The notes under the pieces: model-generated
The model's database searches: none
Seen by the model: the letters and a program-made list of their open reading frames with translations, nothing else
Told to the model about the DNA's origin: nothing
Shown here: positions 15,994 to 36,700 of the stretch, one piece after another
How positions within the stretch are numbered: the first letter of the stretch is position 1
How the letters are laid out: every line of letters starts with the position of its first letter
DNA from: Limobrevibacterium gyesilva
GTDB taxonomy: Bacteria > Pseudomonadota > Alphaproteobacteria > Acetobacterales > Acetobacteraceae
Length of the DNA stretch: 64,000 nucleotides
Assembly (NCBI RefSeq): GCF_025989185.1
Contig: NZ_JAPDNT010000004.1
Span: 186,001-250,000, forward strand
Reading direction: 5' to 3'
Translations under genes and position numbers: made by a program

Positions 15994-16291
15994 ATTTCGC
16001 TATAGAAATGCAGTCGAGCGACTCCATCGAGATCGTCGCCCGCTCTTTCGATATACCCCGGTCGTGAGAAGTTCGGGCTAACCCGTGAGGCAGGGAACAT
16101 TCGCAGCTGTCCAATTCACCTCCGCCGACTCCCATCGCTGAGCTTCACGCCGGCGATGTGGTGTAGCGGCGTTAACCCTTCATCGGGGTGAGTTGAGCGG
16201 GCGGCGCGTGACGTGACCGGGCCGAACCATTCCTGCGAATACGGCGCTCTTGCCTCTTGCAAACTGCCGGAAATCTGCGAACTTTGTCGGA

Positions 16292-22200: not shown

Positions 22201-22264
22201 GCAGCTTCGGGAAGTGTCGCGAGAGCGATGTAAACAGGCTATCGCCATCGCACGTTCTGCCTGA
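16292..22264 (+). CDS. DUF4011-type SF1 helicase with Vsr-like nuclease domain (putative anti-phage protein, Hhe-like)
   Basis: Protein of 1990 residues from ATG 16292; a TTG at 16250 is an alternative. Order of parts: an N-terminal region with a transglutaminase-like signature (Cys247 in LATCLDLAVLFAACIEAMGL, His273 in VVKGHAFTGLWL); a DUF4011 region around RWRKRLLDISGRNRLLNLRT; an SF1 ATPase with Walker A GPPGTGKS at 729-736; a long helical insertion; DEAS at 1372-1375; VVGDPKQLPPT; and LNVAVTRARQ. A PD-(D/E)XK/Vsr-like domain follows at about 1670-1760 (FRIDLGVVD, AGVECDGATYHRG), then a DUF3320-like tail near 1840-1920. The architecture matches the single-gene DUF4011-helicase-Vsr defence class. 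It probably recognises and cuts invading nucleic acid. Confidence 0.85.
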   Translation: MDEKRNADDVTDTCEDFGAAEGCLDHDKPASLAVGLQPALNAALWQNHVPVISELTFIAGGGADLGDVTLELACEPPLIHPRTWRLQDVSAGQIRVVPDLDVMVDGAKLTALTEAIRATVVLTARRDGTDSPPVAVLQRDLRVLAHNEWGGTGGIPDVLAAFVEPNDPEVATLLRQTSDHLRALGKPDALEGYQATSKTRIWEQVEALWRAICALDIRYVNPPPSFEETGQRIRPPRQVVKDRLATCLDLAVLFAACIEAMGLRPVIVVVKGHAFTGLWLTRHDFGSSVADDAPGLRTRLALDDLLLFETTLVCGRGRTGFTRACEAGAEHVVADKDAAFEAVIDVHRARQRRIRPLATVADGYARQPNTMAEGAALPELPVEEPPPLRDEPLAEAQDEATTPADRLARWRKRLLDISGRNRLLNLRTGGKQALAIDCPEPAKLEDLLAQMRGRSRPAPLRFRSWPELMTGADPRSAGLHRSRLQEPADRAFARDALARRELVAGRDEASLLAVLTEIYRAARAAQQEGGSNTLFLTIGTLLWRQKGKDAPYRAPIILVPVVLERPSVRSGFSLRVHDDETRINATLLEMLKQEFALRFPTLEAERPPEDDAGVDVQGVLDTFRGKLRDVPGWEVTDDVTLTNLSFTKFLMWKDLGDRADALRQSEIARRLMDGSEDRTQARGDHTATKQAAPDIDAAMGDLVCPLEADSSQLRAVAAAAGGKSFVLIGPPGTGKSQTIANIIANTLAQGRSVLFVAEKRSALEVVQRRLRKVKLDDFCLDLFSAKTSKVAVLEQLNRTQQARETFDAQEWHTANAEAAALRAELNGYVRELHQRGHNGWTPFRAIGCVLRAETGGVPEVSFAWPDPDTHDAGGYQRLVEQVEEAAATLAQLGDVVSAASLSGIEITEWTPPWQARLFEAAGGTAARLLVLADAAGAAARAIGLATPSLSRSSILALDVLASVLLEPAAIDGAWALTADAEVTMDAVRAEASRITRYRDIRTTLETSWRPGATALPLAELQEAWRIATDRWAIGRAIAQRALRRRLGVEALGPVPKECGAEIGRLIEMQRIEAAATAAGPRLAASLGQRWSGMETDFARIEAGFAWARRLRAAAAACAIDPVSLLKLREHLHRLVSDGADLLAPTGTVGTVLERLRAASAEAHASLELLASLCGSDPTTILDPAREDWATALATHLQDWTGAARLLRDWCNWRGVAQRMDIVGLTPLLRALEAGLVAPADAARTFEANYARWWIGLAVANAPRLRSFVAAQHATRIERFRALDARLVALAARLTRARLTDGIPDSTQRERDPEYTVLARELAKRQRHLPVRQLAARMPKALRRLTPCLMMSPLSVAQYLPTEAEPFDLVIFDEASQIATWDAIGVIGRGRQVVVVGDPKQLPPTRFFERQLPDGDAGGETVDVEVQDLESILDECLGVGVPAVELNWHYRSRHESLIAFSNQAYYGGRLVTFPSPATHDTAVSFRYVVDGVYARAGARTNQAEARAVVAEALAVLRETLAGGPTRSVGIVTFNAEQQGLIEDLLDAARRDDPALEPFFSDDAPDPVLVKNLEGVQGEERDVMLFSLTYGPDATRRVAMNFGPLNQAGGERRLNVAVTRARQSLIVFGSLRPDQIDLSRTSAIGVAHLKQFLAFADQGARAFAATATGPLGDHESPFEVAVAERLRGRGWTVHSQIGVSGFRIDLGVVDPDASGAFLAGVECDGATYHRGATARDRDRLRQSVLEDLGWKILRIWSTDWWTNAARETERLHAALGFALAEARARRDEEVPAPVVNSERIAGPDGLAPGVPSYERVGAAGNADASAVDDSEGGRTGALPEPERFYDDAYRSRLTELVRLELRADGPLRQDRLIQRIARAHGFQRAGREIQERIIASIPEGSARSRDAAGTFVWPTNSDPGAWNRFRRPSPGANRDPNEIPIEELAVLARDCLHEAQDDEMVLMRMRDACGLQQLREVSRERCKQAIAIARSA

Positions 22265-22589: not shown

Positions 22590-23082
22590 ATGGACGAAGT
22601 TTTGCCGCCGCTCGGAACGGATGAGAGCGCTCGTACGAGCAGTCGTACGAGCGGTCGTAACGCGCGGGTGGAAATCATCACGCGCGGCGAGCCGCGGCGA
22701 CGTTGGACGCCGGAGCAGAAGCGCGAGATCGTTGCGGAGAGCCTGGGTCCCGAGCTGACGCCGACGGAGGTCGCCCGCAAGCACGCCATCAGCTCTGGAC
22801 AGCTCTATACGTGGCGCCGGGAATTGCTGAACGTGCAGAGCGCGATGGTCACGCGCTCTATGCCGCGATTTGCCGAGGTCGAGCTGGAGGCGGATTCATC
22901 GCAGCCGGCGGCCCCCGATCCAACACCCGTGGAGGCATCGCCACCGCCTGCGCCCTCGCTGCCCGTTCGGCCTGATGGGCTGATCGAGCTTGTACCGTCG
23001 GGGCGGGGTGGTGGTGCGCGTGGATGCGCATGTTGATGGCCGCGCGCTTCGCCGGGTTTTGGGTGCGCTGGAATGGCGATGA
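22590..23082 (+). pseudogene. tnpA: IS66 accessory protein TnpA, frameshifted near the end
   Basis: HTH-containing IS66 OrfA: RRRWTPEQKREIVAESLGPE and SSGQLYTWRRELL. After DGLIELV the frame is lost in a G-rich run near 23000; the expected ending (VVRVDAHVDGRALRRVLGAL) continues in the next frame to the stop at 23080-23082, overlapping tnpB by 10 bp as usual. The N-terminus holds a 12 bp near-tandem repeat (22631-22654). Confidence 0.75.
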
Positions 23083-23429
23083 TCGCGCTTGCGTCCGGCC
23101 TGCGCGTTTATCTGGCGTGCGGGGTCACCGACATGTGCAAAGGCATGACCGGGCTGGCGATGCTGGTGCAGCAGTACCTGGCGGAGGATCCGTTCGGCGG
23201 CGCCGTGTTCGCCTTCCGCGGTCGGCGCGCCGGGCTGATCAAGCTGCTGTGGCATGACGGCGTGGGGCTGTGCATGCTGATCAAACGGCTGGAGCAGGGG
23301 CAGTTCGTTTGGCCTTCAGCCACCACGACTGGCCGGATTGCGCTGACGTCGGTGCAACTGGCCGCCTTGCTCGACGGATGCGAGTGGCGGGCCCCGGCGC
23401 GGCCCCGTAGGCCGGAGCTGGCCGGGTAA
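23073..23429 (+). CDS. tnpB: IS66 accessory protein TnpB
   Basis: Intact 118-residue IS66 OrfB (PF05717 type): LRVYLACGVTDMCKGMTGLA, EDPFGGAVFAFRGRRAGLIK, KRLEQGQFVWP. It is required with TnpA for IS66 transposition by an unknown mechanism. It is the only undamaged core gene of this element. Confidence 0.9.
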   Translation: MAMIALASGLRVYLACGVTDMCKGMTGLAMLVQQYLAEDPFGGAVFAFRGRRAGLIKLLWHDGVGLCMLIKRLEQGQFVWPSATTTGRIALTSVQLAALLDGCEWRAPARPRRPELAG

Positions 23430-23502
23430 AACCACTCCCAGGTCGCGATAAACGCTGGCTCCGGCGCGACGGCATTGTTCATCATTGGGGCGTGCAGATT
23501 GA

Positions 23503-25127
23503 CCTGACACCCTGCCGGACGACCCCACCTTGCTGCAGCAAATGCTGCGCGCGGTGCTGCATCAACAGGGTGAGTTGCACGCCGAGAACGACAAATTTCG
23601 CCTGCTGATCCGGCGCCTGACGCGCCGCCAGTTCGGCCGCCGGTCCCAGCCGTTCACGGCAGATTAGTTGCAATTCGGGCTGGAGGATCTGGAGCAGACG
23701 ATCGCCGAGAACCAGGCTGGGAAAGAGGCGGCAACGCCCGCGGCTGCCAAGCCCCGCGCCGAGCGGCTGAGCTGCAATCACGGTGCGCTCCCTGCCCATC
23801 TCCCCCGGTATGAGGTGGTGCTCGATGCCGAGCCCGCCGCCTGCCCCTGCTGTGGCGACGCCATGCACAACATCGGCGAGCTGCGCGCCGAGCAACTCGA
23901 CATCGTGCCTGCTTAGTTGCGCGTGCGTGTCACGCGTCGTCCGCGCTATGCCTGCCGCGCCTGCGAAGGCGCCGTGATATTGGCACCGGCGCCGGAGCGG
24001 CCGATCGATGGCGGCATGGCAACCGAAGCACTGATCGCGCATGTGTTGGTCAGCAAATTCTGTGACTCCCTGCCGCTGTATCGCCAGGCGCAGATGCTTG
24101 CACGTCAGGGTGTCAGCCTCGACCGCTCGACGCTGAGCAACTGGGTCGGCCGCGCCTGCTGGTGGCTGACGCCGGTCTATGACCTGGTGGTCAGCACGGT
24201 GCTGTCCTCCACCAAGCTGTTCGCCGACGACACCAGCCTGCCGGTGCTGGACCCTGGCCGTGGCCGGATCAAAACGGGCCGCCTGTGGTGCTACACGGTT
24301 GACGATCGGCCCTGGTGCGGCCCCAGCCACCGGCCGCTGCCTATGTCTACGCAGAGGATCGCCGCAGCATCCGACCGGCGGCCCCTCTGGCGGGGTTCAA
24401 CGGGGTGCTGCAGGTGGACGGCTATGCCGGGTTCAAACGGCTGACTGGCGATCGTGGCCGACGGCGCGGTGTGCGTGGCCTTTTGCTGGGCGGAGCTGCC
24501 CAAGGTTCCGCGTACGCAGCGCGTAGAATGGCAGCGGAGGGACATGCACGCCGGAATTTCTACGAAATCTACCAGTCCACAGGCTCGTTGCTCGCCGCCG
24601 ATGTGCTGGGGCGCATCCGGACGCTCTACGAGATCGAGGCCGACATACGCGGTCGACCCGCCGAACATCGCCGCGACGTGCGGCAGGGGCGTAGCCGACC
24701 GATCGTGGAGGCCGTGCATGACTGGCTGCAGGATCATCTGCCACGTGTCTCCGGCGCGTCGGACTTGGCGGAGGCGATGCGCTACGCGATCCGTCACTGG
24801 TCCGGCCTGATCGTGTTCCTTGATGACGGCCGCGTGGAGATGGATACGAACGCTGTGGAACGCGCGATCCGGCCCGTGGCCCTCCGCCGTAAGAACGCAC
24901 TGTTCGCGGGCCCGGATGGCGGTGCCCGGCACTGGTCGATCGCAATGACGCTGATCAACACGGCGAAGCTGAACGGTGTTGAGCCGATGTCCCACCTGGC
25001 CGACGTGTTGGGGCGCATCGTGTCCGGGCGGACCAAAGCTCATGAATTGCCGGCATTGCTGCCCTGGAACTGGCAACCCGAGCACGTGCTGGCAGTGAAC
25101 GCAGAGCCGTCCGCCATGGCCGCCTGA
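23503..25127 (+). pseudogene. tnpC: IS66 transposase TnpC, disrupted by two TAG codons and frameshifts
   Basis: IS66 DDE transposase remains in pieces. An N-terminal part runs to QPFTAD and a TAG (23666-23668), a zinc-finger part (ACPCCGDAMHNIGELRAEQL) runs to a second TAG (23914-23916), then the DDE core (LFADDTSLPVLDPGRGRIKT) is lost by a frameshift near 24310. A scrambled stretch follows around 24450-24560. The C-terminal part (MDTNAVERAIRPVALRRKNA) is intact to 25127. Both TAG codons stand where related proteins have Gln, consistent with CAG to TAG changes. Confidence 0.85.
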
Positions 25128-25700: not shown

Positions 25701-25754
25701 TTGACGTTTCGTGCGCGTGCGATATATCATGTTTGAAAATCGAACGTGAAACGT
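25701..25754 (+). promoter_or_regulatory. Promoter and possible operator of the ACP/nucleotide operon
   Basis: TTGACG (25701-25706) and TATATC (25723-25728) are separated by 16 bp. ACGTTTC (25704-25710), overlapping the -35, is repeated in inverted form as GAAACGT at 25748-25754, just before the ATG at 25759. The operon encodes an XRE regulator, which could bind this pair. Spacing and sequences are seen; function is inferred. Confidence 0.5.
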
Positions 25755-25758
25755 ACAT

Positions 25759-26130
25759 ATGGACGCGACCAAGGATCAATTGGAGGAGATCTTCAACGCA
25801 AAGACTCCTCTTCTCATCAGTGCGCTTGAGGCTTGGTTCGAGGAAGAGACCGCATCGATCGACGGCACTGTCCCGGCTGGCGCGCCATCCGGCAGCGGCG
25901 GTTCGATCATTGCCATGCGTCCGGCGATCGACTCCAAGCGCGTAATCGATGCGACGTCTGTCACCAAGGAGGTGCTTGGCATTGAACTGCCGCCCGAGAT
26001 CATCAAGGCGGGGGGCTACGCTAGTTGCGACGAGATGATTGCGGACATCGTGCCCAAGCTTCAGAAGGTATTCGCGGGCGAGATCAAAGTGAAGAAGCGC
26101 AAGACGATTAGAGAGCCGGAGAAGGTATGA
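25759..26130 (+). CDS. Acyl-carrier-protein-like protein
   Basis: Protein of 123 residues. From about residue 55 it has the ACP pattern: Asp58-Ser59 in PAIDSKRVIDA as the candidate phosphopantetheine site, a helix, then LGIELPPEIIKAGGYASCDE and MIADIVPKL, resembling helices II-III of carrier proteins. About 50 N-terminal residues form an extra segment with a Gly/Ser-rich linker, and the C-terminus is lysine-rich. An AcpS-type transferase is encoded at the other end of the same operon, which supports the reading. It is the first gene, with a 10 bp gap to the XRE gene. It could instead be an unrelated helical protein. Confidence 0.55.
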   Translation: MDATKDQLEEIFNAKTPLLISALEAWFEEETASIDGTVPAGAPSGSGGSIIAMRPAIDSKRVIDATSVTKEVLGIELPPEIIKAGGYASCDEMIADIVPKLQKVFAGEIKVKKRKTIREPEKV

Positions 26131-26140
26131 AAGTGATCTC

Positions 26141-26497
26141 ATGAGCGACGAAACCGAGAGGTGGCGCCAGATCGGCGATCGGCTTCGGCAAGCCCGTGAG
26201 TATCTTGAACTTAAGCAGGAGGAGGCCGCCAAGGCGGTAAGCCTCTCGCGCTCAGCACTTTCGCTGGTGGAGAACGGCCGCCGCAAGGTGGATGCAGTCG
26301 AACTCGCTCGCTTCGCTCAGATTTATGGTCAGTCAATCGAGGCGCTCACCGGCGTTGCCGAGACGCGGCCATTGCCTGAAAGTGTAAAAGCGCTCGCGCG
26401 CGCCGCCACGGAACTGTCGGCCGAAGATCGCGACGAGCTTTTACGTTTTGCCAAGTTCCTCCAGGCGCGCAGTCCACGGGGTGCCAGCCGTGGCTAG
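26141..26497 (+). CDS. XRE-family helix-turn-helix regulator
   Basis: Protein of 118 residues with an N-terminal Cro/CI-type HTH (LRQAREYLELKQEEAAKAVS, then LSRSALSLVENGRRKVD). The C-terminal half is helical and acidic. It overlaps the next gene, an ImmA/IrrE metallopeptidase, by 8 bp. XRE plus ImmA/IrrE is a standard pair in which the peptidase cleaves the repressor after a stress or phage signal, so this operon is probably induced by repressor cleavage. Confidence 0.9.
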   Translation: MSDETERWRQIGDRLRQAREYLELKQEEAAKAVSLSRSALSLVENGRRKVDAVELARFAQIYGQSIEALTGVAETRPLPESVKALARAATELSAEDRDELLRFAKFLQARSPRGASRG

Positions 26498-27509
26498 GTC
26501 GCCCGCCGCCGCCGTACGCTTGGACGCCATCGCCGCAGCAAAGCGCGTGCATCGCGAGCTGGACCTACAGCGGCGGGTGACCGGCGACGCCGGGCAGATC
26601 GACGTATTCGAGACGATCGGGGAACTTGATATTCCGCTGGTGTTCAAGCCGCTCACCTCGGCGTTAGGGCTGTGCCTGCCGGCACCGCTTCGCGGCATCA
26701 TGGTGACAACCCGTCGCGGCCTCCACATCCAGCGCTTCACCGCGGCGCATGAGCTGGGCCATGTCATCCTGGAGCACCATGGGAGCGTCGACTGCGAGAT
26801 CCTGGAGCGAGGCCCGTTCGCGCCGACCGGTAGTCGAGATCTACAGGAGGTTGCGGCCGACGCCTTCGCCGCCGAGTTTCTACTGCCCCGCTGGCTGTAT
26901 CGGCACCATATCCGGTCGCAGGGCTGGACAGTTAACGGCCACCTCCGCAACCCCGATGTCGTCTATCAGCTCTCCCTTCGCATGGGGGCGAGCTATGAGG
27001 CGACCTGCTGGGGACTCGTCAGCCACCAGATTCTGCCACAGGGCGAGGTGGACGCACTGCGCAAGGTGCCCGTTGCGCGGCTGAAATCGAAGCTTGGCGG
27101 CGAGTTCAAGCCAAGGAATTCCTGGGCGGATGTCTGGCGGCTCACTAACAAGGATAACGGGGCCCGTGTCGTCGGCAACCCGGACGACCTGCTTCGCATC
27201 GAGCTCGAGGAGGCCGCCGGCAGCGGCTACCAATGGGAAGTTGAGGCCCTCCGGGGGGCGGGCTACCTAATCCTGTCCGACGAGTCGGCCTTCTCCCGCG
27301 ATCCGCTTCTTTACGGCGCGCGGGCGGTGCGCATCCTTATCGCCCGGCCGCCAGCGGCCGGTGTTGGCACCGTGACCCTGCGCGAGACCCAGTTGTGGGG
27401 GAACGGTGCAGCGGACGATCCTGCCTTCTCGGTCGCACTGGCGCTGCAGGGCCCTGAACTCGGCGGCCTGTCGCGCGCCGACCGCCGTCGCTTGGGACTG
27501 CAGCCTTGA
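26490..27509 (+). CDS. ImmA/IrrE metallopeptidase with C-terminal chagasin-like domain
   Basis: Protein of 339 residues from a GTG at 26490. The N-terminal half is an ImmA/IrrE peptidase with the zinc motif HELGH (FTAAHELGHVILEHH) and the third-ligand stretch EVAADAFAAEFLLP. After about residue 225 comes an extra domain with LEEAAGSGYQWEVEAL and AGVGTVTLRETQLWG, resembling the loops of chagasin/I42 inhibitors of papain-type peptidases. The next gene encodes a papain-like peptidase, and the two overlap at TTGA. The peptidase call is firm; the inhibitor call is by motif only. Confidence 0.8.
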   Translation: MARSPAAAVRLDAIAAAKRVHRELDLQRRVTGDAGQIDVFETIGELDIPLVFKPLTSALGLCLPAPLRGIMVTTRRGLHIQRFTAAHELGHVILEHHGSVDCEILERGPFAPTGSRDLQEVAADAFAAEFLLPRWLYRHHIRSQGWTVNGHLRNPDVVYQLSLRMGASYEATCWGLVSHQILPQGEVDALRKVPVARLKSKLGGEFKPRNSWADVWRLTNKDNGARVVGNPDDLLRIELEEAAGSGYQWEVEALRGAGYLILSDESAFSRDPLLYGARAVRILIARPPAAGVGTVTLRETQLWGNGAADDPAFSVALALQGPELGGLSRADRRRLGLQP

Positions 27510-28141
27510 TCGTTCCGACCGTCGATCTCCGTCCCGACTTGCTGCCGATCCGACACCAGAGGCGCCGCCAGTCATGTCTGGCTTTCGCCAGTTCGACCGC
27601 ACACGAGCATCAGGCCAGGCCCGGCGAGCATTTTTCGGTCGAGTTTCTTTTTTACCACGCTGTCGCGCGCACCCCGGGTTCGGACCCGTCGGCCGGGACG
27701 ACGATGGCGGCGACCGCCTCGGCCCTGGCCGATGCGGGGCAGCCGGTCGAGACCGCTTGGCCCTATAGCCCCATCCAGGTCGCGCCCTGGGCGCCACCGG
27801 CGGTCACCACAACGCTCCACAAGGCAACGATCGTGCCCGGCAAGTTCATCTTTGGCGACATCATCGCCGCGCTCGATCAGGGGCGGCCGATCATCCTCGG
27901 TCTCGTCATTACCGACGCCTTCTACCGCCCCGACGTCTTCGGCCGGGTTCGGGATGAAAATCCTGACACCGAGCGGGGCGGTCACGCCGTACTCGCCATT
28001 GGCCACAACGTCGGCGCCGGCGGCACACCCGCTCTGCTCATCCGAAACAGTTGGGGTGAGAGCTGGGGGCTTGGCGGCTACGCCTGGCTCTCTCGTGCCT
28101 ATGTCGACCGCCAGCTTCATGAAACCGCTGTACTGACCTAG
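27506..28141 (+). CDS. Papain-like (C1-type) cysteine peptidase
   Basis: Protein of 211 residues from a TTG overlapping the previous stop. The C1 catalytic set is visible: Gln18 for the oxyanion hole and Cys24 (IRHQRRRQSCLAFASSTAHE), the histidine in GGHAVLAIGHN, and asparagine in IRNSWGESWGLGGYAWLS. There is no propeptide or signal sequence, so it should act in the cytoplasm, where an active peptidase would need restraint. The adjacent chagasin-like domain is the obvious candidate. It could alternatively catalyse acyl or amide transfer. A strong AGGAGG site follows its stop, serving the next gene. Confidence 0.82.
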   Translation: MIVPTVDLRPDLLPIRHQRRRQSCLAFASSTAHEHQARPGEHFSVEFLFYHAVARTPGSDPSAGTTMAATASALADAGQPVETAWPYSPIQVAPWAPPAVTTTLHKATIVPGKFIFGDIIAALDQGRPIILGLVITDAFYRPDVFGRVRDENPDTERGGHAVLAIGHNVGAGGTPALLIRNSWGESWGLGGYAWLSRAYVDRQLHETAVLT

Positions 28142-28150
28142 GAGGTTGCG

Positions 28151-28963
28151 ATGGAATTGATCAAGGGCCAAACGGTTCCCGCAGTTTGGCTCGCCGCGGT
28201 TGAGCATCTGACCGGCTGCCCAGACGGGGAAGACTTCGACGTCTTCCTGCACGTGGCCGAACCTACCAAGCTGTCCGAACAGGACGCCGCCGTCTACAAC
28301 GAGGTGGATGGCTTCTTGAAGTCGCGGGGGGCTTTTGGCGTCCACACCGTCGCGGAAACCATCTTCCCGCTCGACGAGTATCTGCATGGCGGCGCGCGAG
28401 GCGTCTTTGACGACTTTCCGCCGAAGATCCGTGCCATTCATAATGCGCGCGACGACGGTAACTGGGGCAGTTACGCGCTGCGAATCCTGCGCCAGAAAGA
28501 TTTCAATGGCGCAACCTTCAACCCGCTTGAGCAGATGGTTGAGAAGATCAAGAACTACGGTAAGTACCGGGCGTCATTCGAGCTTGGCCAGGGCCGCTTG
28601 TTCGAGGACGACATCCCGATCTACGACCCGGCGACGGATCGCAAGCGCCTTTACGGCGGCCCCTGCCTCAGCCACCTCAGCATCAAGGTGCATGACGGCA
28701 AGGTCCGGTTCAATGCGACCTACCGCTCGCACTACTATGTTCGGCGTCTCCTCGGCAACCTGGTCGGCCTTGGCCGGCTCCAATACTTCCTCGCGCGGGA
28801 AACCGGGCTCGAACTCGGGCCGCTGACCATCAATTCAACCTTTGCTCGCCTCGATACCGGATCTGGCACCGGCATCGGTGGCCACTGGGGCAAGCGGGAC
28901 GTCGATGGGCTGATCGCGCGGTGCCGCGCAATCTACGACGCGACACGCGCGGCTGCGGCCTGA
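28151..28963 (+). CDS. Thymidylate-synthase-fold protein (putative pyrimidine C5-modifying enzyme)
   Basis: Protein of 270 residues. Cys172 in GGPCLSHLSIKV, Arg192-Ser193 in YRSHYY and Asn203 in LLGNLVGL keep exactly the spacing of E. coli ThyA Cys146, Arg166-Ser167 and Asn177. The ETGLELGPLTINS stretch also follows the family. The ThyA HxY pair (His207, Tyr209) is replaced (Arg233, Asp235), and Asp169 is Tyr. So it keeps the nucleophile and the uracil-contacting Asn but has a changed substrate pocket. Related phage enzymes make 5-hydroxymethyl-dUMP or -dCMP; that role, or use of another nucleotide, is inferred from the neighbours. Confidence 0.7.
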   Translation: MELIKGQTVPAVWLAAVEHLTGCPDGEDFDVFLHVAEPTKLSEQDAAVYNEVDGFLKSRGAFGVHTVAETIFPLDEYLHGGARGVFDDFPPKIRAIHNARDDGNWGSYALRILRQKDFNGATFNPLEQMVEKIKNYGKYRASFELGQGRLFEDDIPIYDPATDRKRLYGGPCLSHLSIKVHDGKVRFNATYRSHYYVRRLLGNLVGLGRLQYFLARETGLELGPLTINSTFARLDTGSGTGIGGHWGKRDVDGLIARCRAIYDATRAAAA

Positions 28964-28976
28964 AGGGGCGACTGTC

Positions 28977-29573
28977 ATGACCGTCAGGGACCAACTTCTC
29001 GCGCTTCAATGGACACAGCTCAAGCATGACGAGGCCTATCACAAGGACGTCGTCATCCTGCCGCTCGCGCAGCGCATCAAGCACATGGCACTGCATAACG
29101 CGAAATACACCGCCCATCTCTTCGAAGTGGCGGAGACGGGCGATGAGGCTCGGCTCATCAAGACGCTCACAGACGCCTTCATCATTTCGCTCGCTAGCGC
29201 CAACACCCTGAACCAGGACCTCGGCGGCGAGCTCGGTGAGGCTGCCGTCGCTGCCACGTCCCTTCCGGCCCTGGGCGCCGATCTGACCGTAGAGCTCGCG
29301 CGGAGCGACGCCGACCCGCTCTGGCTGGTGCGGGCGTTTGCCCGGCAAAATGGTCAACTCGCCAAGGCCTGCGAGTCCTGGGACCATCTGGAGAGCGTGC
29401 CGTTTCGCGACTTGATGCGGAGTTGCAATGTCGCCATTTTGAAGGCCGTATTGGTTGAAGCCAGCGCTCGTGAACTCGATCTCGCCGAAGCTTACAGGGC
29501 GCGCATCCGCGAGGTGGAGACCCGCTCGATCTTCGATGGCCACTATCGGGAAGGTGCGGGAGGGGAGGCCTAA
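28977..29573 (+). CDS. MazG-like all-helical protein (putative nucleotide pyrophosphohydrolase)
   Basis: A 198-residue helical protein. The middle part (ALHNAKYTAHLFEVAETGDE, then TLTDAFIISLASANTLNQDL) has the look of the MazG/dUTPase-like four-helix fold, with a late D-x-F-I-I-x-L-A-x-A-N pattern. The usual ExxE metal site is not clear, so activity is doubtful. It lies 13 bp after the TS-fold gene and its TAATG overlaps the next start. In modified-base phages such enzymes remove unwanted dNTPs, which would fit here. Confidence 0.45.
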   Translation: MTVRDQLLALQWTQLKHDEAYHKDVVILPLAQRIKHMALHNAKYTAHLFEVAETGDEARLIKTLTDAFIISLASANTLNQDLGGELGEAAVAATSLPALGADLTVELARSDADPLWLVRAFARQNGQLAKACESWDHLESVPFRDLMRSCNVAILKAVLVEASARELDLAEAYRARIREVETRSIFDGHYREGAGGEA

Positions 29574-30388
29574 TGTTCTGGGGCGGCGAGCGCCTGAAGG
29601 CGCAGCTGGGCGCGCTGATCAGCGACTATGATCCCCAGCGTGTGGATCGGGCCGCCTATCGCCTCCGAATCGGTTCTGAGGTCTATGTCTCGCCGACCGG
29701 CGAGCCTAATGATCCCCGTAATAAGCCGAAGACCCAACTCACTTTCAGCCAAGGCTTCACCATTCCGGCCGGTCAGTTCGGCTTCGTCCTGACCGAAGAG
29801 CGGGTCAAGGTACCCAAGGAGGCGATCGCCTTCATCTCGATCCGAGCCAAGTATAAGTTCCGTGGGCTGGTCAATGTGTCGGGGTTCCACGTTGATCCCG
29901 CCTATGAGGGACGGCTGCTCTTCTCCATCTTCAATGCCGGGCCTGGACCAGTGCATTTGTCGCAAGGTGAGGAGTGCTTCCTGATTTGGTACGCGGACCT
30001 GGACCAGCCATCGGATCTCCCTATAAAGAACGGGTTCGACAGCATCCCCTCAGAGCTGACTGGCCCGATCGCTGGCGGCCTACAGTCCTTCGCGAGCCTG
30101 CTGTCCAAGATTAACGAGAACGACAAGAAGGTGGGCGACCGCGTCAGCGTGGTCGAGCGCGAGCAGGCGGTGCTGAAATGGGCGACGGCGCTCGTGGTAG
30201 GTGCGGTGCTGACGCTTGGGCTTAAAGACTGTTCCTTGAGCCGGGCCAGCACTGCTTTGCAGACCAGCGCGACCAGTGCGGTCCCCGCCCCGCCGACGGG
30301 TACGCCGCCCGCCGCGCGACCACTTGGCGCGACGACCCCGCAGGGGAATACCTCTGCGCCCCCACCTCATGCCGGGGGCAAACCCTGA
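29573..30388 (+). CDS. dCTP deaminase/dUTPase-fold protein with C-terminal membrane anchor
   Basis: Protein of 271 residues. Residues 20-165 match the DCD/dUTPase fold: YRLRIGSEVYVSP, ISIRAKYKFRGLVNVSG, FHVDPAYEGRLLFSIFNAGP, LSQGEECFLIWYADL. The Asp of motif 3 (VDPAYEG) is kept, but the glutamate that is catalytic in E. coli Dcd (Glu138, in LEFYN) is Ser (FSIFN), so deaminase activity is unlikely. A coiled region and one transmembrane helix (WATALVVGAVLTLGL, about 203-218) follow, then a Pro/Ala/Thr-rich tail. Membrane attachment is unusual for this fold. Confidence 0.72.
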   Translation: MFWGGERLKAQLGALISDYDPQRVDRAAYRLRIGSEVYVSPTGEPNDPRNKPKTQLTFSQGFTIPAGQFGFVLTEERVKVPKEAIAFISIRAKYKFRGLVNVSGFHVDPAYEGRLLFSIFNAGPGPVHLSQGEECFLIWYADLDQPSDLPIKNGFDSIPSELTGPIAGGLQSFASLLSKINENDKKVGDRVSVVEREQAVLKWATALVVGAVLTLGLKDCSLSRASTALQTSATSAVPAPPTGTPPAARPLGATTPQGNTSAPPPHAGGKP

Positions 30389-30522
30389 CGCGATGGCCGT
30401 CATCGAAGAGTTAACGGCGTCTCCAAAGCCCGCTAGGTTGAGCCGACTTTTAGTTCGGCGTATGGGCGATGCACCATCAGGCCGCTCGCCGGGCCGCCTC
30501 GCGCGCACCAGTTTAGGGACTT

Positions 30523-31527
30523 ATGGATCCGACACCTGTCTTCAACAGCTATTGGCGGTTTGCGGCCGAACGCCAGGCCATGTTCTTCCGGCGACTGAGC
30601 GACCCTGTCGGTCCCTGGACGGACGATCCGGTTCTGGCGATGTATCGTTTCACTAACGCCTATCGCGCCAGCGATCGGGTGAGCCAGTATCTGATCCGCG
30701 AGGTGCAGTATCACCCGGATCGGCCGGCGACGCCGCCAGAGCTCTTCTTTCGCACGCTCCTGTTCAAGTTGTTCAATCGAGTCGAGACCTGGGAAGCGCT
30801 GGAGCGCCAGCTTGGCCCGATCGTGTGGGAGACCACCGACCTTAACGCCGTGGCGCGAACGCTCGACGAGTTGATGGCGCAGGGCAAGCGGATTTACTCG
30901 GCAGCCTATATCATGCCTGCCCCGGCGTTCGGCCACCCGCGCAAGCACGCCAACCATCTGGCGCTGTTGGCTCAGATGATGGAGGACCGGCTGCCCGAGC
31001 GGGTCCGTCAGGCCCCCACGCTGCGCGTCGTCTATGAGCAGCTGGCGCGCTATTCCGGCATCGGGCGGTTTTTGGCGTTCCAGTACACGATCGACCTCAA
31101 TTACTCGACGCTGCTGACGCGCTCGGAAGACGACTTTGTGGTCGCCGGTCCGGGCGCGCTCGACGGCATCGCCAAATGCTTCTCGAACACGGGGGGGCGT
31201 GACGCGGAAGCGGTGATCTTTTGGGCGTGCGACCAGCAGGAACGTGCCTTCGCCGCGGCCAATCTGGCGTTTTCGACCCTGTACGGGCGTCGCCTGAAGC
31301 CGATTGATTGTCAGAATCTGTTCTGTGAAATCTCAAAATATGCGCGTGTCGCCCACCCAGACCATCCGGGGCTGTCGGGTCGCACCCGCATCAAGCAGAG
31401 CTATCGGCGCGATCCGCAACCTCTGCCTGTCCCAATGTATCCACCGCGCTGGGGCTTGAAGGTGGGCGATCACGAAACGGCGGGCGCGTCCGCGGCGACC
31501 CGCCGCAAAATGGGTCTCTTGTTATGA
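30523..31527 (+). CDS. 5-hmdU DNA kinase helical-domain / thymine hypermodification family protein
   Basis: Protein of 334 residues. The signature near the N-terminus, FFRRLSDPVGPWTDDPVLAM then YRFTNAYRASDRVSQYLIRE and LFFRTLLFKLFNRVETWEAL, is that of the helical domain found in phage 5-hydroxymethyl-dU DNA kinases and related alpha-glutamyl/putrescinyl-thymine enzymes, a DNA-glycosylase-like fold. I see no P-loop, so it is probably not a kinase itself. It would bind DNA or a modified nucleotide. A 134 bp gap with a small hairpin precedes it; its stop overlaps the next gene (ATGA). The family call rests on recalled motifs. Confidence 0.65.
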   Translation: MDPTPVFNSYWRFAAERQAMFFRRLSDPVGPWTDDPVLAMYRFTNAYRASDRVSQYLIREVQYHPDRPATPPELFFRTLLFKLFNRVETWEALERQLGPIVWETTDLNAVARTLDELMAQGKRIYSAAYIMPAPAFGHPRKHANHLALLAQMMEDRLPERVRQAPTLRVVYEQLARYSGIGRFLAFQYTIDLNYSTLLTRSEDDFVVAGPGALDGIAKCFSNTGGRDAEAVIFWACDQQERAFAAANLAFSTLYGRRLKPIDCQNLFCEISKYARVAHPDHPGLSGRTRIKQSYRRDPQPLPVPMYPPRWGLKVGDHETAGASAATRRKMGLLL

Positions 31528-31886
31528 GCCAGACCGACTCGACCCCGCCGATCCCACCTGCTCAACCACAGCTGGGCTGGTTAGTTCGCATTGCCTTCAG
31601 CGGGTTGGCGGCAATCGGCTTGGTCGTCCTCTGGCGGCTGTGGCGCTTGGCCGCCGAGGTGCCCGCCATGGAATTGGGGGGCCTCGTCGCGCGACATGGG
31701 GCCGTCCTGATCGGAGTTCCCGCGGCGGCAGTGCTCGCCTTATTCCTGATTGGCATTGTACGCGCGATCGATGGGCCAATAGAGTTCGACGTGCTTGGTC
31801 TGCGGGCCAGAGGTGCGGGGGCGGCAATCATTCTCTGGATCGCGGCCTTTGTGGCGATTGGCCTGTCGATTCGAGCGGTTTGGTAG
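31524..31886 (+). CDS. Small membrane protein of the operon
   Basis: A 120-residue protein with three predicted membrane segments: LVRIAFSGLAAIGLVVLWRL, ARHGAVLIGVPAAAVLALFL and GAAIILWIAAFVAIGLSIRA. A proline-rich N-terminus precedes them. No family recognised. Start and stop overlaps with both neighbours show it belongs to the operon. It could partner the membrane-anchored DCD-fold protein. Confidence 0.7.
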   Translation: MSQTDSTPPIPPAQPQLGWLVRIAFSGLAAIGLVVLWRLWRLAAEVPAMELGGLVARHGAVLIGVPAAAVLALFLIGIVRAIDGPIEFDVLGLRARGAGAAIILWIAAFVAIGLSIRAVW

Positions 31887-31894
31887 TGGGCTCA

Positions 31895-32284
31895 GTGATC
31901 ATTGGCGCTGGTACGGACCTTTGCTATATCGAACGGATCAGGCGTTCGTTGCGCCGCTTCGGTGACGCGTACCTCGAGCAGCTATTCACGAAAGATGAGC
32001 GAGCACCGCACGGGTCCGGCGTCGATCTCGCCACTTTCTATACCCGCGCTTTCTGTGGCAAGGAGGCGTGCGCTAAGGCGCTGGGCACCGGGCTCGCGAA
32101 CGGAGTTGGTTGGCGCGACATCGAAGTCTTGCAGACCCAGAACTGCGCTACGCTGCGGCTCTCTAATGGTGCGTTCGAGCGGCTGCGGCAGCTGACCCCA
32201 ACAGGGCGTCGCGCGACGCTTCACGTCACTTGCGCGAGTGATCAGCAAATGGCGCAGGCCTTTGTGGTCATCTCGGCATTCTAG
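31895..32284 (+). CDS. AcpS-type 4'-phosphopantetheinyl transferase
   Basis: Protein of 129 residues from a GTG at 31895; GTG 31886 would add three residues. AcpS features: the N-terminal Asp motif IIGAGTDLCYIERIRR and the Mg-binding TRAFCGKEACAKALGTGLAN with its conserved Glu. Length matches holo-ACP synthase. It would move phosphopantetheine from CoA to a carrier-protein serine; the ACP-like product at the start of the operon is the likely target. An IS5 element begins directly after its TAG stop, leaving the frame intact. Confidence 0.85.
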   Translation: MIIGAGTDLCYIERIRRSLRRFGDAYLEQLFTKDERAPHGSGVDLATFYTRAFCGKEACAKALGTGLANGVGWRDIEVLQTQNCATLRLSNGAFERLRQLTPTGRRATLHVTCASDQQMAQAFVVISAF

Positions 32285-32334: not shown

Positions 32335-33447
32335 ATGTCGGGAGCGATGGACGGTGTCGGCATGCGCGGAGCGGATGAGCAGAGCGTGGCGCTGTTCAGC
32401 TACTTAAGCCCTGACGTGCTGGCGCCGCGGGACCATCCACTGCGGTCGATCTGGCCGCTGGTGAATGCGGCGCTGGCGCAGTTCTCGCCCAAGTTCGACG
32501 CGCTCTACGCTGGCAGTGGCCGGAACTCGATCGCCCCGGAGAAACTGCTGCGGGCGCTGCTCCCGCAAGCCTTCTACGGCGTTCGGTCGGGACGCCAGCT
32601 GATGGAGCAGGTCATCTACAATATGCTGTTCCGCTGGTTCATCGGCCTGTCAATGGACGCGCCGGTGTGGGACGTGACGGTGTTCACCAATAACTGCGAG
32701 CGCCTGCTGGCCTGCGATATCGCGGTGTCGTTCCTGCTGGCGGTGATGGGCGATCCGGCGGTCAAGCAGCTGCTGTTGACCGAGCATTTCTCGGTGGGCG
32801 GTCCGCTGATCGAGGCGTGGGCCTCGATGAAGAACTTTCGGCGCAAGCACGGCAGCGACGATGATCCGTCTGGACCCGGCCGCAACGCCGAGCGTGACTT
32901 CCGCGGCGAGAAGCGGAGCAACGAGACGCACGCCCCGACCACCGACCCGGACGCCCGGCTCTATCGCAAGTCGGATGGCCAGCCGTCGCGGCTGTGCTTC
33001 ATGGGGAACCTGCTGATCGAGAACCGCCACGGGCTAATCATCGATGTCCGCACCACGCATGCGACCGGGCGGGCGGAGCACGAGACGGTTGAAGCGATTA
33101 TCCAGGCTGCCAAGCGCGGGCGACGGGCGACGCTGGGCGCGGACAAGGCCTATGACGCGGCCGAGCACATTGCCCGCTTGCGCGCCATCGGCGTCATGCC
33201 GCTCGTGACCCAGCACGGGTCCGGGCGGCGCTCAGCGATCGATGGCCGCACCACACGGCATGCCGGGTATGGGATCAGCCAGCACCTGCGCAAGCGGATC
33301 GAGAAGTCGGTCGGCTGGATCCGGGCGACGGCCGGGCTGCGCCACACCCGGCATCGCCGCCTGGCGCGGGTCGGCTGGGTCGTCACGCTGACGGCAGCGG
33401 CCTGCAACCTGGTGCGCCTGCCCAAGCTGCTGGCGAGCGCGGCGTGA
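32335..33447 (+). CDS. IS5-family transposase
   Basis: DDE transposase of 370 residues: ADEQSVALFSYLSPDVLAPR and DHPLRSIWPLVNAALAQFSP at the N-terminus, then SVGGPLIEAWASMKNFRRKH, VRTTHATGRAEHETV and LGADKAYDAAEHIARLR of the catalytic core. The C-terminal region with GYGISQHLRKRIEKSVGWIR is normal for the group. No frame damage is seen, so it may be active. Confidence 0.93.
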   Translation: MSGAMDGVGMRGADEQSVALFSYLSPDVLAPRDHPLRSIWPLVNAALAQFSPKFDALYAGSGRNSIAPEKLLRALLPQAFYGVRSGRQLMEQVIYNMLFRWFIGLSMDAPVWDVTVFTNNCERLLACDIAVSFLLAVMGDPAVKQLLLTEHFSVGGPLIEAWASMKNFRRKHGSDDDPSGPGRNAERDFRGEKRSNETHAPTTDPDARLYRKSDGQPSRLCFMGNLLIENRHGLIIDVRTTHATGRAEHETVEAIIQAAKRGRRATLGADKAYDAAEHIARLRAIGVMPLVTQHGSGRRSAIDGRTTRHAGYGISQHLRKRIEKSVGWIRATAGLRHTRHRRLARVGWVVTLTAAACNLVRLPKLLASAA

Positions 33448-33706: not shown

Positions 33707-36700
33707 ATGGTCTTAAGTCCCGCTGACCTAATCCATCTGGCCAACCTGAAGGCCGCGCTGCAGGAGGAAAAGCAGGCAGCAAAGTTCGAACAGTTGGTGG
33801 CCGCCCTCATCGGTCGACTGCTCGGGGTCGGCGTTGCCGTGGCCAAGGCCAGTTTCCAGCACGGCGGCGACGCGGGCACTGCTGGGCGTCAGGGCCGGCG
33901 CCTGCGCATCGAGTGCAAGAAGTACGCGGACACGACCGACCTAAGTGATCGCGAACTACTGGGCGAGGTTGACCAGGCGCTGGACCGTGATCCTGCCCTG
34001 GAGGCCTGGATCTTGGCAGCCACCCGCGAAGCGCCCGAGCAACTCGAGCAGATGCTGGCTCAGAAGGCGCTGAGGATTGGCGTTCCGATCGTCATAGTCG
34101 ATTGGAAGGGCAGTGGCGTCACCGCTCTGGCGGCGCTCTGCGCCTTCGCTCCCGACCTCGTTGAAGTGCTGTTCTCCGCAAAGGCCGCCGGCCACGCCCA
34201 CGCGCTGCAGGCCGTCGCGGCCGACGCTGTCGAACGCCTTCGTCGCGACTTCCAGGCTTGGACCCTGGGTTTTGAAAGCCTTCGCACCCTGACTCACGGC
34301 CAGCTTCAGAATATTTGGACGTCTCCACGGGCCTCGGCGGCCGCGCTAAATCAGAACGCCGCAGGGGCGTCCGCCAAGCTGATCGCCCGACCGTCGGTCT
34401 CGTCGGCGCTCAATGCTTGGTGGTCGGGGTCAGCTACTGGCGATGCACCCGCCACTGTGCTGGGTCCACACGGCGTGGGCAAGACCTGGGCCACACTGGC
34501 CTGGTTGGTGGACAGTGCTGACGCACAACCTATCGTGCTGGTGATCGCCTCCTCCGCCGCCAAGGAACTAGTCTCTACTTCCGAACTCTCAGTTAAGCGC
34601 TTCCTGGCAGCGCGCCTCTATGAACTCTCCGGCGGCGTCCGCGACGTTGAACACTGGCTGCAACGCCTGGAGCATCTCCTGAAACGGCCGGCCGAAGAAG
34701 GTCCGGTGATGACGGTCTTCTTCGATGGGATGAACCAGGAGCCGTCCGTCCCCTGGATCGGCCTCCTCAAGACCCTGCAGGCCGCTCCTTTTGCAGGCCG
34801 GATCCGCGTGATCGTCAGCACGCGCAATTTGCATTTTGAGGACAAGCTCGGCCGCCTGCGCGGCCTGATCGTCCAGCCCGCCGAGACACCGGTCCGCGTA
34901 TATGACGATGCGCCGGGCGGCGAACTCGATCAGCGGCTTGCCCTCGAGGGCCTGACGCGCGGCCAACTCCATTCTGACCTACTGGAACTGGCCCGTACGC
35001 CGCGCCTGTTCAATCTGGTGGTTCGCCTGAAGGATCGCCTGGTGGAGACGGGCGAGGTCACCCTCCACCGGCTGCTTTGGGAATATGGCCGCGACGCCTG
35101 GGGCGAACGGTCCGGATCATCCTTCAGTGAGGCGGACTGGCGCGCCTGGCTCAGCGAGATCGCCACGCGCTATCGAGACGGAGCCCGCAACTTCTCGATG
35201 AGAACCCTGGCCGAAACCGCCAGCCGGCCCGATTTGTCCGAGGGCGAGGTGTTCGCCCGGCTCAGCGACATCATCGATGGCCAGCTGACGACACCAGGAC
35301 CGGGGGGTGTTCATCGCTTCAGACCGAATGTGGTCGCCCATGCGCTGGGCGCGGCGCTGTTGGCCCAACTCGGTGAGCGTGGAAACGTGCACTTTGATGA
35401 GCTCGACGCGGAACTGGCTCAGTGGCTCGACCCGATCGCCGGCTACGACGAGCGGGCGGAGATCCTGCGCGCGTCCGTCTCCATCCTGGTGGAGCTGGGC
35501 GAACCCGCCGCCACGCCGCTGGCCGGGGTCCTGGTCACCGCATGGCTCCAAACGCAGAACCTCACTGATGCCCACCGACAGGAATTGGCTGGCCTGGCGG
35601 TCCGTCTGCCCGGCGCCCTGCTGGATGCGATCGAACACTCGGCCGACTACTCCCAGGCCTCGACGCGCCTGTGGGCGGTCAACGCTCTGCGGACCATCCG
35701 TCGGCAGCCTGGTGAGGTGTTCGACCAACTCGTCGCCCGGTCCAGGGCATGGCTGAGCGAAGTGTCGCGCGACGTCCAGCCAGCCCATCGGACCTCGGAA
35801 GACATCGAACGCCACCGGGCCGCGCGATTTATGGATCGGGTCGGTATCGACAACTCGGGACCGATTCGAGTGCTGGGTGTCGATCTCATGCTGGTGGACC
35901 GGACCGACGGCGCGGTTGCCCAGACGGTCCCGTCGATCCTGGAAGGTTTTCCCCTGGCAGGAGCCTTACCGGTCTTCGAAGCCGCGGCTGTCGCTCTGGC
36001 TGCGGGTGGCCGGAGCCCTGCCTGGGATGGCCTCAAATGGCTGTGCCTACTGAACGAGGTTGATCCGGTGAAGACGACGGAAGCCCTGCGGTCGCTCTCG
36101 GCCTCGGTCGCAGCGCGGACAACCGAGCCCGGCATTAACGGCGCCCTGCCAGCCAGGGCCGCCGCATTGCTGCTGTGGCTGACCGGCGTAGAGGACGACG
36201 ACGTCGCGGCCTCGGCGCTCGATCCCGGCCTCGACCGCATACTCACATACGAGACCGACTACCTCCCGAACCCGGGCCGCAGCGTCTTCACTCTGGAGCG
36301 ACGCCATGCGGAGAGAGTGCTATGCGATACGAGCCTGCCGCTGCTATGGCGGGTCAAGCGAACGTGCGAGCTTTGGCTGGATCCGCACTTCGAACCGCCG
36401 GCGGCGTTCGTGGGCGAGGTACGGACCCTCGCCGCGTCCTTCGACGTCACGAAGCTCGACCACGGTGGCGGCGTCACGATCGAGGATCATAATTTTGAGA
36501 TCTTCGAACTGGCCTTGGCCCGCTGCGCGGCTGAGCAGTTGGGCAAGATGACGCGCGCGAAACTCACCCAGGCCGATGTTCCCGCCGAGTCTCGTTATCG
36601 GCGCGCCATCAGAGCCGCCGAACACTTGATCCTCGCGGGCCCTGCCGAGGCGGCGGCGGCCCGCACGTTGCGATTGTCATCGCGCGAACTCCAGAGTGAC

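Follow-up and report, generated by a model that had tools for sequence, protein, structure and literature searches.

What does a protein bearing the serine site of an acyl carrier protein (ACP) do at the head of an operon of nucleotide enzymes? The question is raised by a 64,000-nucleotide stretch of the alphaproteobacterium Limobrevibacterium gyesilva (contig NZ_JAPDNT010000004.1, positions 186,001 to 250,000), referred to here as the window, in which ten genes span positions 25759 to 32284 of the + strand, closely spaced or overlapping except where 134 bases precede the HMUDK_hel gene. An original prediction, made from the letters alone, had placed an ACP-like gene at the start of this operon and an AcpS-type transferase at its end, and both genes are confirmed there on the + strand. 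It had also found no ketosynthase or adenylation enzyme and had supposed that the carrier pair serves something other than fatty acid or peptide synthesis; indeed, no ketosynthase, adenylation, acyltransferase or other carrier-loading domain is recognised among the ten products in Pfam, NCBIfam, PADLOC and PHROGs scans, and the neighbours are nucleotide and base enzymes. From a comparison of related loci we consider it moderately probable, on sequence evidence, that the operon encodes an inducible, horizontally mobile and probably defensive pathway for deoxyuridine monophosphate (dUMP)- or thymine-type bases that depends on a carrier protein.

Results

We examined 99 loci (the window together with L004-L101), the genome loci among them being the 80 top-ranking of 199 relatives found. 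Three relatives were reached through a carrier query, including a Rhizobium plasmid protein with 54.9% identity, and the remaining loci through the neighbouring thymidylate-synthase-like (TS-like) protein, so that most loci were not selected by the carrier. A single TS-like query found no relatives in a viral collection, and a TS-like alignment query found one. Near-identical copies count once: the 99 loci fall into 57 clusters at 80% identity of the TS-like protein, the largest holding 25 loci. The carrier was detected in 96 loci, the others being an isolated TS-like fragment (L017) and two contigs that start within the operon (L031 and L035); 54 clusters have a carrier, and counts out of 54 omit these three loci. 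Phosphopantetheinyl transferase (PPTase), uracil-DNA glycosylase (UDG), HMUDK_hel and similar components were called in the loci with in-house profiles built from few members (E <= 1e-3).

The carrier, a helix-turn-helix (HTH) protein, an M78 metalloprotease and the TS-like enzyme occur together in 54/57 clusters, and are joined by a papain-family C1 peptidase in 52. The module is found in Alpha-, Beta- and Gammaproteobacteria, Myxococcota, Acidobacteriota, Nitrospinota, Planctomycetota and Streptomyces, as well as in one Thermoplasmata archaeon and on one Haloarcula plasmid. On the tree, the archaeal pair clusters with Acidobacteriota and one gammaproteobacterial bin (support 100/99, with L009 on a long branch), a placement that points to horizontal transfer.

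The first gene (25759 to 26130, + strand) encodes a 123-residue protein with Asp58-Ser59, the carrier site originally proposed. The equivalent of Ser59 is retained in 96/96 homologues, preceded by Asp in 91, Glu in 4 and Ser in 1, and the residue two before it is I, L, V or M in all 96; the profile behind these counts was made from 17 members, all with Asp-Ser, and is thereby biased towards proteins of this kind. Invariance in the 17-member alignment is limited to D58 and S59, and among 38 members, where mean column identity is 21% (21-33% across the carrier alignments), to Ser59 alone. Against solved structures, the family profile places ACPs at the top (best E 3.3e-4): of the three matches at E <= 0.001, two are ACPs and the third is named 'putative uncharacterized protein', and a hand count finds carrier-type names in 55 of the 58 rows at E <= 10. 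Furthermore, the carrier gene is annotated as 'acyl carrier protein' in two Streptomyces plasmids of PLSDB. An AlphaFold2 model has three long helices, the second of which (59-73) begins at Ser59. The protein resembles the ACPs of fatty acid and polyketide synthesis in having Asp-Ser at the predicted start of helix II, a similar hydrophobic pattern and an AcpS partner; it differs from them in that no ketosynthase or acyltransferase is recognised beside it, its sequence lies under Pfam thresholds, and Lys rather than Leu follows the serine in the window clade. We conclude from these alignments that the 123-residue protein is a diverged acyl-carrier-type protein, for which the sequence evidence is strong and the fold evidence alone would be insufficient.

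The last gene (31886 to 32284, + strand), read at the outset as a holo-ACP synthase homologue, scores above the cut-off of TIGR00516 (64.6 bits against 59.8) and of PF01648 (47.9 against 25), and in the AcpS-type set of 16 sequences, the window's included, the Glu, Lys-Glu-Ala and Lys of the motifs are invariant and the Asp nearly so. The mechanical open reading frame (ORF; 31640-32284) begins too early, and the likely GTG start at 31886 overlaps the preceding stop. The window's draft genome (98.5% complete) has two PF01648 matches, one in the operon and one on contig C8. Within the fetched stretch, a PPTase lies in the locus in 27/54 clusters, 15 of AcpS type and 12 of Sfp type; a Pfam cross-check, which covered the 12 Sfp-type proteins and not the AcpS proteins individually, found PF01648 in 12/12 and the PPTase N-terminal domain in 11/12. 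By comparison, whole-genome searches gave 80 PPTase matches across 40 genomes (about 221 Mb in total), so that a 20-kb stretch would be expected to contain one about 0.7% of the time. Since each of these genomes has at least one match, loci without their own PPTase presumably draw on that of the host.

The search for covariation of carrier and transferase genes, suggested with the original prediction, gave a divided answer: two PPTase subfamilies and at least five changes on the tree speak for it, and the half of the clusters with no in-locus PPTase speaks against it. On the TS-like tree, the states AcpS, Sfp and none need at least five changes; the Sfp group fits a single one and the AcpS group needs five. 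The two subfamilies therefore imply at least two acquisitions, and the other changes may be losses, for which reason we dropped a count that scored every change as a recruitment. In the Thermoplasmata bin of L040 (G313), the sole PF01648 match maps to the locus by its coordinates and scores under the curated cut-off; the bacterial bin of L038 (G311) likewise has one PPTase match, a result that incomplete bins can give. A PPTase accompanies 20 of the 25 HMUDK_hel clusters and 5 of the 26 UDG clusters (p 2e-5), an association that is bound to clades; it is never reversed in independent pairs, which are too few for a test. An apparent co-evolution of the Lys after the serine with PPTase presence (19/21 vs 8/33, Fisher p 3e-6) is not counted as independent evidence, as the tree reduces it to 2 trait changes and the paired test gives p 1.

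Besides these two genes, the operon carries a putative regulatory switch that, like the operator-like site and the conservation of the module as a whole, lies beyond what the original prediction covered. The second gene (26141 to 26497, + strand) encodes a CapH-like HTH repressor (PF13560, 50.1 bits; PADLOC CapH, 43.5 bits), and the third (26490 to 27509, + strand) a CapP-like M78 metalloprotease of the ImmA/IrrE type with a C-terminal chagasin/I42 inhibitor domain (PF06114, 37.3 bits; PF09394, 28.1 bits; PADLOC CapP, 61 bits); its mechanical ORF is 26448-27509 and its likely start a GTG at 26490. The HExxH motif is retained in 55/55 relatives of the protease. Upstream, a palindromic operator-like site on the + strand (25730 to 25746, TGTTTGAAAATCGAACG) departs by one mismatch from the family pattern TGTNNGANNNTCNNACA. 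With at most one mismatch, this pattern occurs near the carrier start in 44/54 clusters (29 of them perfect, and the archaeal L040 included) compared with 2 of 1041 (0.19%) equally long control windows drawn from these loci; at two mismatches or fewer the figures are 47/54 clusters and 5.7% of controls, contrasts that are somewhat flattered by a pattern derived from the same loci. In the window, the site lies directly 3' of the -10-like box of a promoter-like element on the + strand (25701 to 25728), with -35 TTGACG at 25701-25706 and -10 TATATC at 25723-25728, a reading made by eye rather than by a promoter scan; six close relatives likewise have a TTGAC box upstream.

The operon thus has the features of a CapH/CapP-type pair, namely an HTH protein, an HExxH-bearing M78 protein and an operator-like site, the PADLOC matches being taken without cut-offs and the operator being inferred from conservation. 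CapH and CapP are reported to be a pair responsive to single-stranded DNA (ssDNA) that regulates immune operons, CapP cutting CapH after binding ssDNA (PMC13373217), and PprI is described as cutting DdrO (PMC10904395). In CBASS and other operons of this kind, an HTH repressor followed by an M78 metalloprotease likewise stands beside effector genes (PMC13373217). Here, in contrast, a chagasin-type motif on the protease is coupled to a papain-type peptidase, a carrier gene precedes the repressor, the output consists of nucleotide and base enzymes, and cleavage of the repressor is proposed by analogy.

The peptidase in question (27506 to 28141, + strand) belongs to the papain family C1 and has the active-site Cys, His and Asn; across clusters, the Cys is kept in 53/54 (with one gap) and the His and Asn in 54/54. 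A chagasin motif, selected after viewing the alignment, is present in the M78 protein in 53/53 clusters with both C1 and M78 and in 0/2 without C1. Pfam agrees: I42 is matched at E <= 0.01 by 11 of the 12 M78 proteins scanned from C1-bearing loci (7 above the curated cut-off, with none in L060) and by 0/4 from C1-less loci (L010 and L016, themselves closely related, L101 and L112). We had first described the inhibitor domain as wholly absent without C1, and replaced this with loss of the motif, since the M78 proteins of L016 and L101 retain part of the region and lack the motif. Chagasin-family proteins inhibit papain-family peptidases, and the fused domain is therefore most simply the peptidase's own inhibitor. 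The original suggestion that the papain-like enzyme is an acyl or amide transferase working on the carrier fares less well: with the catalytic residues kept and the inhibitor motif coupled to peptidase presence, the enzyme looks like a regulated protease, judged from conservation, and an acyltransferase role ranks second.

The fifth gene (28151 to 28963, + strand) encodes the TS-like enzyme, with Cys172, Arg192 and Asn203. It scores below the cut-off of TIGR03283 (36.1 bits against 174.55), and its family aligns with a solved thymidylate synthase around the nucleophile Cys (E 0.0061). The three residues align with the nucleophile (Cys), the phosphate contact (Arg) and the dUMP/uracil contact (Asn) of thymidylate synthase; they are conserved in 57/57, 57/57 and 56/57 clusters, respectively. 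Unlike in thymidylate synthases of the TIGR03283 type, the position of the folate-contact Asp holds Asp in 6/57, and Tyr in the window protein. Because the Cys, Arg and Asn are kept and the folate-contact Asp mostly is not, dUMP chemistry seems likely and ordinary folate use doubtful for this enzyme.

The eighth gene (30523 to 31527, + strand) encodes the HMUDK_hel protein, consisting of the helical domain only (PF18723, 343.3 bits against a cut-off of 25), whose predicted structure (predicted local distance difference test score, pLDDT, 91.8) resembles helix-hairpin-helix glycosylases. Among 285 chains chosen by Foldseek, the best VIA match is the 5-phosphomethyl-deoxyuridine glycinyltransferase of phage PaMx11 (gp46/PUGT; Z 11.5, root-mean-square deviation (rmsd) 3.8, 230 residues), with queuine-salvage DUF2419 next (9.8) and then helix-hairpin-helix DNA glycosylases (8.4 and below), values that helical proteins can attain through a common arrangement. 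The likeness to gp46/PUGT lies in the predicted fold; in contrast, sequence identity is 10%, the window protein has no kinase domain, and phage pathways of this kind are not known to use a carrier protein. The HMUDK_hel profile found chance-level matches only among PDB sequences. As the VIA rows agree on base-handling enzymes and UDG takes the place of HMUDK_hel in other loci, a glycosylase-fold, base-handling enzyme is the more likely reading of the model; a kinase role was rejected for the window protein, in which a P-loop nucleotide-kinase domain was not found. The Asp of the hairpin motif is kept in 24/24 clusters with residues there. Counted by cluster, the accessory enzyme is HMUDK_hel in 25, UDG in 26 and neither in 6 of the 57; the two co-occur in 0/99 loci, and the swap between them needs at least six changes on the tree. 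A MazG/MazG_C-type protein is common in HMUDK_hel and UDG loci alike and is fused to HMUDK_hel once (L047), while the HMUDK_hel of L034 carries a fused thymidylate-kinase domain. Across the class, 385 genomes hold 8 HMUDK_hel matches, two of them on contigs under 10 kb; four (the window, G012, G196 and G108) lie near HTH-, M78- and TS-type genes and four (L114-L117) do not.

Three further genes complete the operon, all on the + strand. A dCTP-deaminase/dUTPase-fold protein (29573 to 30388; PF22769, 45.8 bits) reaches 58.9 bits against TIGR02274, below the cut-off of 92.8, and has a hydrophobic C-terminal segment as read by eye. A 198-residue protein (28977 to 29573) belongs to phrog_19333, which has no assigned function, and proteins of this type give profile matches in L004, L009, L011, L021-L026 and L029. 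A small membrane protein (31524 to 31886, by eye) has no family above cut-off.

Discussion

How might these parts work together? Sequence comparison shows which components are present and that they are conserved together, as well as the carrier site, the operator-like site and the link between inhibitor motif and peptidase; for the chemistry, the trigger and any anti-phage effect we infer the following course. At rest, the HTH protein would act at the promoter-proximal palindrome as repressor of the operon, and the papain-like peptidase would be kept inactive by the chagasin domain fused to the M78 protease. By analogy with CapP/CapH and PprI/DdrO, DNA damage or phage ssDNA may activate the M78 protease, upon which the repressor would be cut and the freed peptidase would act on some protein substrate. 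The operon's AcpS, or a host PPTase, would then place phosphopantetheine on Ser59; the deaminase-fold and MazG-type enzymes would provide dUMP; the TS-like enzyme would activate C5 of dUMP through its conserved Cys; and the thiol or a thioester of the carrier would join in building a C5-modified uracil nucleotide. Finally, the glycosylase-fold enzyme, HMUDK_hel or UDG, may act on the modified base, in DNA or in the nucleotide. The most likely partner of the carrier would be the TS-like enzyme, given that the two persist together even without C1, which is missing in Streptomyces L010 and L016, in the viral-collection contig L101 and in the divergent alphaproteobacterial L112. As no loading enzyme is recognised, the cargo would be host-derived or the thiol itself.

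A bolder version of this scheme, which we hold as a tentative possibility, is that the TS-like enzyme uses the carrier in place of folate, yielding a carrier-dependent modified base under a two-protease, damage-sensing switch shared by bacteria and archaea. Two routes are conceivable: the C5 carbanion of Cys-bound dUMP could attack a phosphopantetheine thioester to give a C5-acyl uracil, or the free thiol could capture a C5-methylene intermediate to give a carrier-tethered nucleotide.

Several observations weigh against a carrier-dependent base pathway. By itself, the 123-residue protein matches nothing in Pfam (E up to 1), NCBIfam, PADLOC or PHROGs (E up to 0.1), and its assignment as an ACP therefore rests on the family profile and its homologues; PF00550 (PP-binding) matches 2 of 38 carrier members, with the window protein not among them. 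The structure prediction proposed as a check of the original reading supported it mildly, in the placement of helix II at Ser59 and not in its overall quality, since the model is of middling confidence (mean pLDDT 74.1, predicted template-modelling score (pTM) 0.58) and Foldseek returns no significant match (best E 0.84). The top eight Foldseek matches are all carrier proteins or complexes holding one, all at E >= 0.84, with TM scores by query of 0.30-0.36; over the Foldseek carrier matches in general these scores are about 0.3 to 0.4 and the rmsd mostly 8-13. In VIA-align, the carrier model matches AcpM with Z 5.6 (rmsd 3.1, 69 residues), and EF-hand kinases rank beside it at up to Z 6.1. No acyl- or aminoacyl-loading enzyme for the carrier is recognised in the operon, and the fetched stretch lacks a PPTase in 27/54 clusters, some contigs ending nearby. 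For HMUDK_hel, Foldseek alone gave no significant match. PADLOC matches in the operon are confined to the HTH and M78 proteins, and neighbouring defence genes were checked in a few loci only. Moreover, the carrier gene lies on the same strand one gene upstream of the HTH gene in 96/96 loci, a placement that would also fit a regulatory role.

Among other explanations, the one that survives best is that a plasmid-borne pathway decorates thymines of its own or of host DNA, in the manner of certain phages, and so evades nucleases during conjugation, with the glycosylase-fold enzyme installing or editing the mark. The module does occur on plasmids, 11 of the 19 PLSDB matches being typed as conjugative, and in L005 it lies between the relaxase and type IV secretion system genes of a conjugative plasmid. 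The 25-locus cluster (L005, L061, L068-L070, L073-L083, L085, L087-L094) spans many sphingomonad genera, and the predicted fold of HMUDK_hel resembles a phage thymine-hypermodification transferase. We nevertheless consider such an anti-restriction role somewhat unlikely: repressor and protease control of the damage type, together with a papain-type protease, would be unexpected for a constitutive protective mark, the UDG of 26/57 clusters would be expected to remove bases, and many genome loci lie on long, possibly chromosomal contigs.

Perhaps, instead, the carrier belongs to the switch, and whether it bears phosphopantetheine or an acyl group tells the HTH, M78 and C1 proteins about the condition of the cell, with the TS-like and base enzymes forming the output. 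Its invariable position beside the repressor gene is what this would lead one to expect, and HTH and M78 are as constant as the TS-like enzyme. On the other hand, the TS-like enzyme is equally persistent, including in the four C1-less loci, and to our knowledge such a switch has no precedent; we regard it as unlikely. A diffusible nucleoside-type toxin or antibiotic, for which the carrier would hold an acyl or amino acid tailoring group, deserves mention in that nucleoside antibiotic pathways include carrier proteins, PPTases and TS-like enzymes. This seems very unlikely here, as a transporter, a resistance gene and an adenylation enzyme were not recognised in the window operon by family scans, and the glycosylase-fold and MazG enzymes suggest work on DNA and on nucleotide pools. 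That the Asp-Ser and the AcpS are coincidental or decayed and the first protein plainly helical and cofactor-free agrees with its lack of a Pfam match and modest fold confidence, and is barely credible beside a serine kept in 96/96 at 21-33% mean column identity, PPTases of two subfamilies and profile matches to ACPs.

Where does a carrier-dependent base pathway stand among known systems? E. coli anti-phage systems with thymidylate synthase and 5-hydroxymethyl-deoxyuridine (5-hmdU) kinase domains have been validated in the DefensePredictor study (PMC13092281), and the domains of its E. coli systems (thymidylate synthase, dNMP kinase, 5-hmdU kinase, NMAD) are of the same kinds as the nucleotide domains of the operon. 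MazG and MazG-C are in its predicted, unvalidated set and UDG is in a figure legend. The terms 'acyl carrier' and 'ACP' never occur in its main text, and a relative of the operon may still be among its systems (PMC13092281). Likewise, a key-term literature search, with sources available in part, returned no paper describing the operon, the few papers found being on different matters (e.g., PMC7824862), and an earlier description is possible. We rate dependence on a carrier protein as the new element, and regulated nucleotide-modifying conflict systems as the known kind to which it would belong. As far as we know, phosphopantetheine carriers are confined to lipids, polyketides, peptides and related metabolites. 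If the carrier does take part in the modification of nucleotides or DNA, this would amount to a new base-modification chemistry, and inducible conflict systems would gain a new class. Two side results can be tested separately, namely that the fused chagasin-type domain is a built-in inhibitor of a bacterial papain-family peptidase, and that the 'HMUDK helical domain' has a glycosylase fold, as its swapping with UDG would suggest.

Variant loci and neighbouring genes

Reduced forms of the module were also seen. The contig from the viral collection (L101) has the carrier, HTH, M78 without the inhibitor motif, TS-like, HMUDK_hel and MazG-type genes and lacks C1. A divergent minimal version (L112:3955-6371) has HTH, M78 without a recognised inhibitor, TS-like, HMUDK_hel, MazG-type and AcpS genes, again without C1; a 101-residue carrier-like ORF with a GFDSK motif, read by eye, precedes its HTH gene. 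In L114 (at 9012) and L115 (at 9539), HMUDK_hel stands beside a MazG-type gene, and the profiles did not find carrier, TS-like, HTH or M78 genes there. On two Rhizobium plasmids, the TS-like gene is split into two consecutive annotated ORFs (L004:11378-12212 and L018:7736-8495), which suggests decay.

In the window, transposase-type ORFs read by eye closely flank the operon, IS66-like on the left (22590-25127) and IS5-like on the right (32335-33447), which suggests that the operon is mobile. Further to the right, a 1556-residue protein (33707-38377) shows, on inspection by eye, a P-loop and an N-terminus like that of nucleases, with no Pfam match at 0.001 and no PADLOC match at 1e-5. To the left, a 2004-residue helicase-type protein (16250-22264) matches the PADLOC candidate family PDC-S37 with 1214 bits, making it a candidate defence gene near the operon. 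Elsewhere, the annotated neighbours of the module in L004, L007, L012, L014 and L018 include caspase-family, pYEATS, Shedu and CHAT-domain genes.

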